Source: a virus
Direction: 5' to 3' (one strand)
Length of the DNA stretch: 20,184 nt
Virus record (IMG/VR): IMGVR_UViG_3300040801_002725
Location: 1-20,184 of that record
Part shown: positions 9,698-12,417 of the stretch, piece by piece
How the letters are laid out: the number at the start of each line of letters is the position of its first letter
How positions within the stretch are numbered: the first letter of the stretch is position 1
The notes under the pieces: generated by a model
What the model was told of the DNA's origin: nothing
Seen by the model: the letters and a program-made list of their open reading frames with translations, nothing else
Database searches by the model: none
Program-made: the position numbers and the translations under genes

Positions 9698-9725
9698 AAT
9701 GTAAAAAACTCCTTTAATTTTATAT

Positions 9726-9733
9726 TATTTATA
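9726..9733 (-). promoter_or_regulatory. Late promoter for tube protein-gp4-gp16 operon
   Basis: The minus strand reads TATAAATA exactly at 9733-9726. The expected start point near 9720-9717 leaves a leader of roughly 20 bases holding the GGAG before the ATG at 9697. Confidence 0.75.
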
Positions 9734-9748
9734 ATAGATATATGATAT

Positions 9749-9756
9749 AATAAATA
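9749..9756 (+). promoter_or_regulatory. Candidate late promoter for 42-aa gene
   Basis: AATAAATA (9749-9756) is 7 of 8 to the late consensus and sits within TATAATAAATA, which also includes a sigma-70-like TATAAT at 9746-9751 without a good -35. The same ATAATAAATA string occurs before the 123 aa gene at 17808-17817. Confidence 0.5.
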
Positions 9757-9760
9757 CTCC

Positions 9761-9790
9761 GTCATCCAAAAGATGACATGTTATTCATGT
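9761..9790 (+). promoter_or_regulatory. Two small leader hairpins of 42-aa gene
   Basis: GTCATC-CAAAA-GATGAC (9761-9777) forms a 6-bp stem, and ACATG-TTATT-CATGT (9776-9790) forms a 5-bp stem. They lie at the 5' end of the expected plus transcript, one base overlapping the other stem, and may protect the mRNA or be alternatives. Confidence 0.4.
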
Positions 9791-9818
9791 TTTCAAATAG
9801 TTAAACAGGAGATTTGAA

Positions 9819-9947
9819 ATGTTGAATCATGATATAGTTACTCTAGGTGTTGACGTTGGAACAGTGATCACACTGAACATAGCAAAAATGGGCCCAGGTT
9901 GGTTCTCAATTTTACAATTCTTTACACAGATAAGCTACCTGGCATAA
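9819..9947 (+). CDS. Small hydrophobic protein, 42 aa
   Basis: ATG at 9819 is preceded by AGGAG (9807-9811) with a 7-nt spacer, and a late-type promoter lies about 60 bases upstream. The product starts MLNHDIVTLGVDVG, continues with hydrophobic segments (VITLNIAKMGPGWFSILQFF) and ends SYLA. Hydrophobicity is spread through most of the chain, so a membrane-associated peptide is possible; there is no clear signal peptide or long charged domain. The stop codon TAA touches the A-run that is the U-tract of the minus-strand terminator, so this gene and the candidate ncRNA converge. Being close to the spanin genes it could belong to lysis control, but that is only a guess. No family recognised. Confidence 0.5.
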   Translation: MLNHDIVTLGVDVGTVITLNIAKMGPGWFSILQFFTQISYLA

Positions 9948-9978
9948 AAAATGGGGAGACTTTGAAAGTCTCCCCATT
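9946..9978 (-). terminator. Strong rho-independent terminator on minus strand
   Basis: TGGGGAGACTTT (9952-9963) pairs with AAAGTCTCCCCA (9965-9976), realistically with a loop of about 5-7 nt. Read on minus, the hairpin is followed by UUUUUU (9951-9946). On plus there is no U-run after it, so the terminator faces transcripts arriving from around 10200 on the minus strand, where no ordinary gene lies. Confidence 0.85.
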
Positions 9979-10216
9979 AAATTACGTCCTGTAACCATTT
10001 TATCATCATCGACCGGTATCTACCAGTCCTTTTATGACTTCACAAAGATAAATATCCTTTTAACCTTTCATCGCAACAACAAATAAGAGTTTCTTTGCTC
10101 CTTGCAAACGTATCCATAAACGCTCTGGATTCCTTTGAGCTTTCTTCACAGTCCAATTGCTATGGGTTCCAATGATGTCGTCCTAAAACATCAAGAGAAC
10201 ATCTTTTTTGTTGTTA
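9946..10216 (-). ncRNA. Candidate structured late non-coding RNA, ~270 nt
   Basis: An exact late promoter (10230-10223) and a strong terminator (9978-9946), both on minus, bound about 270 nt without a credible gene. The 5' end pairs with an internal segment: bases 10218-10202 against 10072-10088 give 16 of 17 pairs with 2 G-U and 1 mismatch. Inside are TTTGC-AAGGA-GCAAA (10108-10094) and a 6-bp TGATGT/ACATCA stem. Downstream, GACTGGT-AGAT-ACCGGTC (10028-10011) makes 7 pairs including a G-U that would be a mismatch on plus, supporting the minus orientation. The first three AUGs near the 5' end meet stops within four codons. A loop showing AAGGA could touch anti-Shine-Dalgarno rRNA. Function is unknown; a decayed gene is the main alternative. 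Confidence 0.5.
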
Positions 10217-10218
10217 CA
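10072..10218. repeat. Imperfect inverted repeat spanning the ncRNA core
   Basis: Arms 10072-10091 (CGCAACAACAAATAAGAGTT) and 10198-10218 are reverse complements except for one extra base, one internal mismatch and two end transitions that become G-U pairs in the minus RNA. The spacer of 106 nt contains smaller stems. Confidence 0.65.
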
Positions 10219-10222
10219 TCTT

Positions 10223-10230
10223 TATTTATA
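10223..10230 (-). promoter_or_regulatory. Late promoter without a downstream ordinary gene
   Basis: The minus strand reads TATAAATA at 10230-10223, an exact late consensus. The first minus-strand gene downstream is the tube protein more than 500 bases away behind a strong terminator, so this promoter appears dedicated to the short structured transcript. Confidence 0.65.
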
Positions 10231-10256
10231 TCCGCGAAATTTTTTACCCCCAGCTA

Positions 10257-10284
10257 TTTACGTTTCCTCTAGTTTGTTTATAAT
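10257..10284 (+). promoter_or_regulatory. Candidate sigma-70 promoter for 90 aa gene
   Basis: TTTACG (10257-10262) and a perfect TATAAT (10279-10284) are separated by 16 nt, giving a start near 10291. It suggests early expression of the 90 aa gene by host polymerase. Confidence 0.5.
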
Positions 10285-10306
10285 AGATCTTGTAAGTTAA
10301 ACAAAC
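10272..10306. repeat. Perfect 9-bp inverted repeat over early promoter
   Basis: GTTTGTTTA (10272-10280) and TAAACAAAC (10298-10306) are exact reverse complements with a 17-nt spacer; they flank the -10 box and start point. It could be an operator or a 5' UTR stem. Confidence 0.5.
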
Positions 10307-10324
10307 ATATCAAAAGGATATATA

Positions 10325-10597
10325 ATGTCTTCATCTTCATATTATGGTACTGCCAGTCTTCAAGAAGTTGCTGAATTTATTGGTTGGTATCTAGAAAAAA
10401 ACGTTATTGAAACATACTCAGAACTTGATAAACTGGTTGAAGAGGAGTTTGGGTATAACGACTGCGATAGGTTTATCACCGATGGTTTAAACCGCCCACG
10501 CCATAAACAACGTATCTACGATGTATACAAACCCTTGCGTAAAGTATACGGTAGACGTATCAATCGTTTTAACGGTGGTTACATTTTAAATCCATAG
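10325..10597 (+). CDS. Unknown protein, 90 aa, probably early
   Basis: ATG 10325 follows an AAGGA ribosome site. The protein begins with a Ser/Tyr-rich head (MSSSSYYGTASLQEVAEFI), has an acidic helical centre (ETYSELDKLVEEEFGYNDCDRF) and a basic Tyr/Arg-rich C-terminal half (RPRHKQRIYDVYKPLRKVYGRRINRF). The charge split and lack of membrane segments suggest a small soluble, possibly nucleic-acid-binding protein. I do not recognise it. It is the first gene of the plus cluster that leads into the spanins, has a sigma-70-like promoter with an overlapping inverted repeat, and is followed 17 bases after its stop by a strong terminator. Confidence 0.75.
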   Translation: MSSSSYYGTASLQEVAEFIGWYLEKNVIETYSELDKLVEEEFGYNDCDRFITDGLNRPRHKQRIYDVYKPLRKVYGRRINRFNGGYILNP

Positions 10598-10614
10598 AAT
10601 TAATTACTTTTTAC

Positions 10615-10659
10615 ACCTCCCAATAAGTATTATTATACATATTTACTGGGAGGTTTTTT
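10615..10659 (+). terminator. Terminator hairpin that contains the spanin ribosome site
   Basis: ACCTCCCAATAAGTAT (10615-10630) pairs with ATATTTACTGGGAGGT (10639-10654) at 15 of 16 positions (one A-C mismatch, one G-U) around an 8-nt loop, then TTTTTT (10654-10659). This is a textbook terminator for the 90 aa gene. Its 3' arm includes GGGAGG (10648-10653), which is the ribosome site of the gene starting at 10661, so transcripts reading through would have that site buried. Confidence 0.9.
10634..10641 (+). promoter_or_regulatory. Candidate late promoter inside terminator loop
   Basis: TATACATA (10634-10641) is 7 of 8 to the late consensus and lies in the loop and 3' arm of the terminator. 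A start about 6-8 nt downstream would omit the 5' arm and free the GGGAGG ribosome site of the spanin gene. Confidence 0.45.
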
Positions 10660-10660
10660 C

Positions 10661-11137
10661 ATGCCTGCTTTCTTATTACCGCTTTTGGGCCTTAAGGACA
10701 TATTTGTTAAACTATTGGGATTCTTTCTCGACAACTGGAAAGAGATCACAATATTCGTACTACTATCAATCGTTATATACCAAAATTTTTATCCAAAACC
10801 TCCAACAGTTTTGGGGTTAACTGTTATTCCGTTGACGACTATTCCGCACCTTGAAGAGCAGCTTCGTCAGGCCCAAGAACAGTTCGAGGTTTGTGCCGAG
10901 GGTAATAGGATACTCTCAGAAACCATAGACGCTAGGAACGAGGAGATACAACGTTGGAAGGATGAGACCGACGCGCTCCAGGAAGAGTTTGACAAGGTTG
11001 AAGAGAGATTGCGGAATAGAAGAACACAAACAAATCAAAGAGTTGAAAGGATAATAAGAGAGGATACGCGACCTAAAGATTCTGACGCCGCTATAGAGTT
11101 TTTAAGAGGTGCAAAAGAACGTTTAAAATGGGATTAA
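10661..11137 (+). CDS. Inner-membrane spanin (Rz-like)
   Basis: The 158-residue protein has a hydrophobic N-terminal region ending in one clear membrane helix (EITIFVLLSIVIYQNFY, about 28-44), then a long polar coiled coil (about 65-135; HLEEQLRQAQEQFEV, NEEIQRWKDETDALQEEF) and a basic C-terminus. This is the i-spanin plan: anchored in the inner membrane and spanning the periplasm to bind an outer-membrane lipoprotein. That lipoprotein is encoded just downstream. Spanin pairs fuse inner and outer membranes in the last step of lysis, which implies a Gram-negative host. Its ribosome site GGGAGG, 7 nt from the ATG, sits in the 3' arm of the preceding terminator hairpin. No endolysin or certain holin is seen in this window. 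Confidence 0.75.
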   Translation: MPAFLLPLLGLKDIFVKLLGFFLDNWKEITIFVLLSIVIYQNFYPKPPTVLGLTVIPLTTIPHLEEQLRQAQEQFEVCAEGNRILSETIDARNEEIQRWKDETDALQEEFDKVEERLRNRRTQTNQRVERIIREDTRPKDSDAAIEFLRGAKERLKWD

Positions 11138-11175
11138 ATTATGATAAAATAGTATCTTTAACACAGAGAAGTCAA

Positions 11176-11556
11176 ATGAAAAATGTTATAAATAGCTCTA
11201 TACTTCTTCCTATGGTTTTGATAGCTACAGGTTGTGGAACTACTACGACGTTAAACACTGAGGTGCAAGAGGTTCTCGTACCGGTGCTCTATTGTCCTAA
11301 TCCTACAATTCCTGATAGACCTGCGCTCGCTATAGAAGATATAAATAATAATACTAGTGCTGGTGAGATAGCTCAGAGATACGAGGCTACCATCGTGCAG
11401 CTTCAAGGCTATGCTGGGGAACTTGAAGAGTCATTAGAACAGTACAAGGATATAAACGAACGTTTTGGCGATATTGAGGAGCGTATAGATATTACGTTTC
11501 AGGATGAAAGGGATGAAGATACAGGAAATACTACAAGAAGTGTCGGAGACCGGTAA
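11176..11556 (+). CDS. Outer-membrane spanin lipoprotein (Rz1-like)
   Basis: Starting at ATG 11176, the product opens with a lipoprotein signal, MKNVINSSILLPMVLIATGC, with lipobox IATG|C and Cys20 as the acylation site. An upstream in-frame ATG at 11128 would add 16 polar residues before the signal and overlap the i-spanin stop; the shorter start is preferred because it makes a normal signal peptide. The mature part (about 107 residues) holds a Thr-rich linker, a Pro-containing segment (VLYCPNPTIPDRPAL) and a helical, acidic half (YEATIVQLQGYAGELEESLEQ). With the i-spanin upstream this is the o-spanin. It is longer than lambda Rz1, so the C-terminal helix may extend the periplasmic bridge. 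Confidence 0.75.
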   Translation: MKNVINSSILLPMVLIATGCGTTTTLNTEVQEVLVPVLYCPNPTIPDRPALAIEDINNNTSAGEIAQRYEATIVQLQGYAGELEESLEQYKDINERFGDIEERIDITFQDERDEDTGNTTRSVGDR

Positions 11557-11899
11557 GGAAGAAGCTATTAATCCCGTTGCAAGTCTTATTGAAGGGCTCG
11601 CAACGATGAACATTGCTTCTCGAGGTGGAATAGTAAAGAGAGGGTTATCTGGTGCAAAGAAATTTGCGTTGGCGAATCCTCTCTTTGTTGCGGGTGCTGC
11701 CGCTCTCGCGATTGATAGATATAACAAGCACAAGCTAAACAAGAGAAAGTCCGTCAATCTTTATTCCAGTAATCCAGACGAACATAAGATAATGAAAAAT
11801 GTTGTTGACGCTCTCGTTCAGACCGGTAAATTTCGTTTAGAGAAATCTGAGTATGCTGGGAAGGACAAGCATTGGCTTCTGAAGAAGGTAAGAACATGA
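11513..11899 (+). CDS. Unknown T4-like virus protein, 128 aa
   Basis: ATG 11513 is preferred over ATG 11504 because AGGA (11501-11504) lies 8 nt upstream of it; the gene overlaps the end of the o-spanin. The N-terminal part (KIQEILQEVSETGKEEAINPVASLIEGL) is helical. A Gly/Ala-rich hydrophobic segment follows (FALANPLFVAGAAALAIDRY, about 51-70) and might be a membrane helix. The C-terminal ~60 residues (KSVNLYSSNPDEHKIMKNVV...KHWLLKK) resemble a small domain I recall in unknown T4-like phage proteins (xxLFAxxxxEKKMMxxxVDxLxxxG..). Function is unknown. Position after spanins may mean late expression. Ends in an ATGA overlap with the next gene. Confidence 0.7.
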   Translation: MKIQEILQEVSETGKEEAINPVASLIEGLATMNIASRGGIVKRGLSGAKKFALANPLFVAGAAALAIDRYNKHKLNKRKSVNLYSSNPDEHKIMKNVVDALVQTGKFRLEKSEYAGKDKHWLLKKVRT

Positions 11900-12417
11900 G
11901 TTTTCTAAATAATCTTTTTGAAGATAAGAATAAAGAAGAGGGGTTTCCTGAAGAAACTATAAAGGAGATCACTAAGCTCATTAAAGAAGGCGCTAAGAAT
12001 AGAAAGAGAGATTGGGCTAACGCTCTTGAACTCATTCACGCCGCCTTTAAACACCTGAACGTTCCAAGACCTAACCCTAACGATGATTATCGTTGGAAGC
12101 AATATGAAGAGCTCATTCAAGTCGCGGTAAAAGAACTTAGAAAATCTCGCTATGTTAAGGGCGACTGGAGAATGTCCTCTACTGTATTTAAAGAGGGTAT
12201 TCAACTCTTTATGGAAAAGGGTGGAAAACACCAGGTTCTAGAGATTGAAGGGACTAAAGATATTAACCGTTTTTTAGATACTATCGCAGAAGCCTTAGAA
12301 GAAGACGGTTATACTATGAATTTAAAAGAGGGTTCCAATGACGGAACCCTCGTAGAATTTGAGCGTTTTGGTATAAAGAACAATCTCAAGGTTTGGTTAC
12401 CTACATCGTATGTTTAA
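11896..12417 (+). CDS. Unknown protein, 173 aa
   Basis: The start is ATG 11896, overlapping the previous stop as ATGA, with AAGG upstream; an earlier in-frame ATG at 11872 would lie well inside the previous gene and is less likely. The protein is helical and charged, with Trp/Arg-rich surfaces (KNRKRDWANALELIHAAFKH, DDYRWKQYEEL, SRYVKGDWRMSSTVF) and a C-terminal beta-like segment (GTLVEFERFGIKNNLKVWLP). No membrane segment or catalytic motif is evident. It ends the plus operon and overlaps the 3' end of the primase gene by 21 bases tail-to-tail. A perfect hairpin inside it (12328-12351) looks like the terminator of the opposing primase transcript. I do not recognise the family. Confidence 0.7.
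   Translation: MSFLNNLFEDKNKEEGFPEETIKEITKLIKEGAKNRKRDWANALELIHAAFKHLNVPRPNPNDDYRWKQYEELIQVAVKELRKSRYVKGDWRMSSTVFKEGIQLFMEKGGKHQVLEIEGTKDINRFLDTIAEALEEDGYTMNLKEGSNDGTLVEFERFGIKNNLKVWLPTSYV
12324..12351 (-). terminator. Terminator for primase operon inside opposing gene
   Basis: GAGGGTTCC (12328-12336) and GGAACCCTC (12343-12351) form a perfect 9-bp stem with a 6-nt loop. On minus it is followed by UUUU (12327-12324), about 46 bases beyond the primase stop. It lies within the coding sequence of the convergent plus gene. Confidence 0.6.

Follow-up and report, generated by a model that had tools for sequence, protein, structure and literature searches.

A putative late small RNA in a T4-related phage, with repeated A(N)GGA hairpins and a possible decoy role towards CsrA/RsmA

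The decoy RNAs of the bacterial Csr/Rsm system (CsrB and CsrC of E. coli; RsmY, RsmZ, RsmV and RsmW of Pseudomonas) are 100-400 nt long, end in their own terminators and carry repeated short A(N)GGA hairpins. The translation regulator CsrA/RsmA recognizes A(N)GGA, and RNAs with many such sites titrate it (PMC4066749, PMC7366521); two of the decoy RNAs, RsmV and RsmW, are believed to have originated independently (PMC7366521). CsrA/RsmA proteins encoded by phages also exist (PMC8450108, PMC7366521); in the open-access literature we found only such phage-encoded CsrA proteins and no phage-encoded decoy RNA of the CsrB/RsmZ kind. Known phage non-coding RNAs are few, with 21 counted in a 2021 paper, and those of phiKZ, found by Grad-seq, come from the untranslated regions of mRNAs (PMC8545117).

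The window analyzed here is an entire linear virus record of 20,184 bases, a 20-kb fragment of a genome, and an interval near its middle probably encodes a late non-coding RNA of about 272 nt, judging from its sequence signals. The predicted RNA resembles the Csr/Rsm decoys in length, in having its own terminator and in its predicted A(N)GGA hairpins, one of which, GUUAC[AGGAC]GUAAU, shares the AGGAC loop and the C-G closure of the CsrB repeat UGACGC[AGGAC]GCGUUA. It differs from them in its long 5' closing helix, in its phage late promoter, whereas the bacterial decoys are typically, but not universally, under GacA/UvrY control, and in having fewer A(N)GGA sites: 7, compared with 13 in E. coli CsrC (246 nt, 7 of them in possible hairpins) and 19 in CsrB (369 nt, 12 in possible hairpins). 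The phiKZ RNAs are also structured, belong to a jumbo phage and measure about 100-180 nt, but derive from untranslated regions, whereas the RNA of the window has its own promoter and terminator. The stable RNAs C and D of T4 are non-tRNA species encoded in the T4 tRNA cluster; the RNA predicted here is likewise a non-tRNA species of a T4-type phage, but lacks any Rfam match.

The phage and the setting of the locus

The window encodes proteins of a T4-related myovirus: tail tube, head closure, terminase, an Rz-like spanin, primase and head maturation protease, together with a T4 baseplate protein; the names UvsW, UvsX and gp32 are those we presume from our own reading of its open reading frames. 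Its terminase shares 49% identity with the enzyme of Xanthomonas phage XacN1 (384 kb) and 47% with the one of Stenotrophomonas phage RAS14 (320 kb), and because of the size of these relatives the genome is likely to be large and the phage a T4-related one of jumbo type.

In near relatives, sheath and tube genes lie upstream of the counterpart of the window's tail tube gene. This cassette is absent from positions 9698-12417, which hold the RNA and small plus-strand genes instead, and the arrangement suggests a site of insertion or rearrangement. Because the cassette is broken here, the relatives have no syntenic counterpart of the RNA. Within these positions, an open reading frame at 10661-11137 (plus) encodes an Rz-like coiled-coil spanin and is overlapped by another at 11128-11556 (plus), which contains the lipobox-like stretch MVLIATGC; the two are likely to form an Rz/Rz1 pair. 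Two copies of the late promoter octamer described below, TATAAATA, lie inside the second frame (11187 and 11340).

In a collection that may lack the records closest to the window, no homologue of the RNA was found in 12 related records, and the loci recovered through tail tube and terminase matches, which are 27-54% identical, do not contain the region. Searches for relatives through the 90-aa protein, the spanin and the primase returned none, and exact patterns taken from the RNA were absent from viral contigs. In phage and plasmid records, DNA similarity searches brought up nothing beyond terminator hairpins of a generic kind and short matches due to chance. A Lentilactobacillus genome (L071, 3957-3978) has an exact 22-base match to the hairpin region at 10011-10032; we rejected it as a homologue, as the similarity does not extend beyond the hairpin and a run of T follows, which makes it look like a chance terminator. 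Rfam, searched at gathering and permissive thresholds, offered no meaningful family for the RNA, and none of the matches up to E 10 was a CsrB, CsrC or Rsm model. A tRNA search of the interval found none.

A late promoter and a terminator around the interval

The features that delimit the predicted transcript are the following:

10223-10230, minus strand: T4-type late promoter, exact octamer TATAAATA, of a class validated in relatives
9946-10217, minus strand: predicted small RNA of about 272 nt, fold z -4.85, with no credible gene inside
9946-9978, minus strand: intrinsic terminator, a 13-pair hairpin followed by a U tract, the strongest terminator-like site of the window

T4-type late promoters consist of an octamer at about -10 and have no -35 box. 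The first-pass annotation had placed an exact late promoter at 10230-10223 on the minus strand, and the octamer there is indeed exact; no sigma-70-type promoter-like site was reported on the minus strand at 10223-10230. The start of the RNA at about 10217 is our assumption, based on the spacing of T4 late promoters.

To evaluate the promoter class, we considered the intergenic copies of TATAAATA with a gene downstream in the window and in related phages (about 1 Mb). Of these 37 copies, 34 are oriented towards the gene that follows, compared with 67% for octamers of the same composition (pooled), and the distance to that gene has a median of 27 nt and a maximum of 153 nt. Few octamers of the same composition do as well, and all of them are close variants, which seem to belong to the same late motif. 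Since the count of TATAAATA in intergenic DNA ranks only 4th of 56 octamers, it is orientation and distance that carry the case for the promoter. In the related loci (L003-L066), the octamers TAATAAAT, ATAAATAT, TAAATAAT and TAAATATA behave in the same way: 95-97% face the next gene, at a distance of about 25 nt. This group of phages therefore probably uses a broader late motif than the T4 octamer. A similar motif has been reported for jumbo phage CBB (PMC5259590). Three larger relatives encode proteins similar to the T4 late sigma factor gp55:

XacN1, 181693-182022 (L069): T4 gp55-like protein
RAS14, 149385-149720 (L068): T4 gp55-like protein
Record G010, 66910-67221 (L070): T4 gp55-like protein

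The copy at 10230 was left out of the orientation test because a 45-aa plus-strand open reading frame, which has a poor codon score, covers it. Between this promoter and the terminator there is no credible gene start on the minus strand and no minus-strand frame longer than 38 aa; the nearest substantial minus-strand gene starts 525 nt from the promoter and has its own TATAAATA at 9733-9726. In the related phages, one candidate for an orphan late promoter (L064, 9559, plus strand) was rejected, as it belongs to an overlapping inverted motif next to a 44-aa frame.

At the other end, the hairpin at 9978-9950 has 13 pairs and is perfect. The strong hairpin with a U tract announced by the earlier annotation thus proved to be the best terminator of the window, and it encloses, with the promoter, about 272 nt without a credible gene. 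On the plus strand the terminator has a weaker U tract, and for this reason the hairpin at 9950-9978 possibly stops both the minus-strand RNA and the plus-strand frame at 9819-9947. The latter, a hydrophobic frame of 42 aa that converges on the RNA, has CAGGAG as a good ribosome site.

Fold of the RNA and distribution of its A(N)GGA sites

For the predicted 272-nt minus-strand RNA the folding energy is -81.1 kcal/mol (z -4.85), a value that none of 200 shuffled sequences reaches. The same holds for the 241 nt that precede the terminator (-60.9 kcal/mol, z -3.25; 0 of 200 shuffles), whereas the plus strand of the interval gives a far worse value, -40.6 kcal/mol with a z of -1.96. The elements of the fold are listed below, with transcript positions counted from 10217:

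10202-10217, minus strand: 5' arm of the closing helix (transcript positions 1-16), outer 11 pairs with probability 0.9-1.0
10173-10193, minus strand: hairpin UGAUGUU[UUAGGAC]GACAUCA, AGGA in the loop, pair probability about 0.92
10122-10140, minus strand: hairpin GCUC[AAAGGAAUCCA]GAGC, AAGGA in the loop, probability 0.31, an alternative to the minimum-energy fold
10094-10108, minus strand: hairpin UUUGC[AAGGA]GCAAA, pair probability 0.41-0.64
10073-10088, minus strand: 3' arm of the closing helix (transcript positions 130-145), from the pair-probability model
10011-10028, minus strand: hairpin GACUGGU[AGAU]ACCGGUC with one G-U, in the minimum-energy fold
9981-9995, minus strand: hairpin GUUAC[AGGAC]GUAAU, pair probability 0.80-0.86, with a loop like that of the CsrB repeat

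The closing helix begins at the presumed start and pairs 15 of its 16 positions; with the start placed one base earlier, 16 of 17 positions pair, two of them as G-U. In the fold model this agrees with the internal pairing of the 5' end, over 16 of 17 positions, that had been noticed from the sequence. The earlier reading also stood in its other structural points: the G-U of the hairpin at 10028-10011 becomes A-C on the other strand, which makes this hairpin dependent on the minus strand, and the stem-loop exposing AAGGA turned out to be one of several whose loops bear AGGA.

In the 241 nt ahead of the terminator GGA occurs nine times, AGGA six times and AAGGA four times, once as AAGGAG. It is important to note that the A(N)GGA motif was chosen post hoc, after the sequence had been seen, and all the following probabilities have to be read with that in mind. 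AGGA is in excess over dinucleotide shuffles (P 0.002, post hoc), the seven A(N)GGA sites compare with 2.8 in shuffles (P 0.008, post hoc), and five of the seven can lie in the loop of a perfect local hairpin, where shuffled sequences have 0.71 (P 0.0005, post hoc). The minimum-energy fold places just 2 of the 7 sites in hairpin loops, and in the ensemble the population of two AGGA hairpins is only 31-64%. Forcing four AGGA hairpins gives -77.5 instead of -81.1 kcal/mol, and because the cost is only 3.6 kcal/mol these hairpins are compatible with the closing helix.

Among the roughly 100 intergenic gaps of at least 150 nt in related phages, counted on both strands, none has more than three such hairpins; in that comparison the RNA itself, shortened by a spurious open reading frame, shows 3 hairpins of 6 sites. 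When about 1 Mb was scanned on both strands in 67,366 test segments, coding regions included, 10 places reached five, of which the RNA is one.

Rival readings and the candidate decoy role

The proposal that the interval specifies a late-expressed phage small RNA has gained from this analysis: the promoter type, the terminator, the strand-specific fold and the lack of a credible gene all support it, and the relatives strengthen the promoter. As to its function, the earlier annotation suggested a possible action on host or phage translation; the repeated AGGA loops suggest instead the capture of an AGGA-binding protein. Since CsrA/RsmA recognizes A(N)GGA and RNAs that bear it can titrate this protein, we propose a decoy for the host CsrA/RsmA, a role that appears possible but rather doubtful when taken by itself. 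A stand-alone late unit that also acts as such a decoy is, as a whole, the explanation we tentatively consider the best. A late small RNA that base-pairs with host mRNAs (in the manner of Hfq or ProQ RNAs) or acts through its structure alone, with incidental AGGA, is itself a serious possibility, short of being probable; the strong fold, the terminator and the promoter would suit any small RNA, and AGGA is only moderately enriched, in a test chosen post hoc. It also speaks against the CsrA/RsmA decoy that AGGA looks like a Shine-Dalgarno site. Nevertheless, no convincing antisense pairing was found to the 23 phage gene starts of the window (best z -2.1), and chance seldom produces five AGGA hairpins. 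The four AAGGA, including the AAGGAG, could be taken to indicate a decoy for the ribosomal anti-Shine-Dalgarno sequence that slows host translation; this reading is very improbable, however, since the RNA pairs with that sequence no better than shuffled RNA does (-9.7 versus -10.0 kcal/mol).

Two further explanations dispense with a functional RNA of this kind. The interval could be a late mRNA with a structured leader for a very small protein, either a 29-aa frame starting with GTG (10149-10063) or a 38-aa frame starting with TTG (10156-10043), the longest minus-strand frames inside the RNA. Late promoters of this type otherwise nearly always serve genes, and the codon score of the 29-aa frame, 0.19 bits/codon, falls within the coding range (0.28 bits/codon for real genes, -0.29 for off-frame reading), whereas that of the 38-aa frame, -0.17 bits/codon, is like non-coding sequence. 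By inspection, however, neither frame is preceded by a well-placed ribosome site, which most of the named genes of the window have; both start 60-70 nt into a strong fold, there is no Pfam match, and the 38-aa frame has no credible match in phages. A tiny protein is thus unlikely, and we give the mRNA reading a small share of the probability. Smaller still is the chance that the interval is a non-functional remnant, the orphan promoter and terminator of a gene lost in a rearrangement: the conserved sheath-tube cassette is broken exactly at the RNA, as this explanation would have it, but the minus-strand fold is strand-biased and much above chance, and the promoter, the 5' helix and the terminator are all intact.

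In our reading, host RNA polymerase with a phage late sigma factor of the gp55 type would probably start at about 10217 on the minus strand and stop at the hairpin 9978-9950, and so yield a stable non-coding transcript of about 272 nt. Its 5' end would be locked in a helix of 11-16 bp. According to the decoy proposal, its hairpin loops and linkers would present repeated A(N)GGA to CsrA/RsmA, so that the build-up of the RNA late in infection would, if the host has CsrA/RsmA, draw this regulator off host or phage mRNAs. The RNA may work like a Csr/Rsm decoy without membership in a known family; because RsmV and RsmW are thought to have arisen independently, the lack of an Rfam match leaves such a function possible. 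More speculative, and in our judgment unlikely, is the fuller version in which the phage owns a late CsrB/RsmZ-like decoy, evolved independently of the bacterial ones, that would disable CsrA/RsmA during virion production.

An orphan late promoter combined with its own terminator makes this interval a clean, testable candidate for a phage RNA gene. Phage-encoded CsrA/RsmA proteins, of which no gene was found in the window or in six related records, likewise interfere with the host Csr/Rsm system, but they supply the protein, whereas the RNA would remove it. In some hosts CRISPR-Cas, too, is under the control of the Csr/Rsm system (PMC8450108). If the RNA titrates CsrA/RsmA, phages would act on this system in two opposite ways, through proteins that supplement the regulator and RNAs that deplete it.
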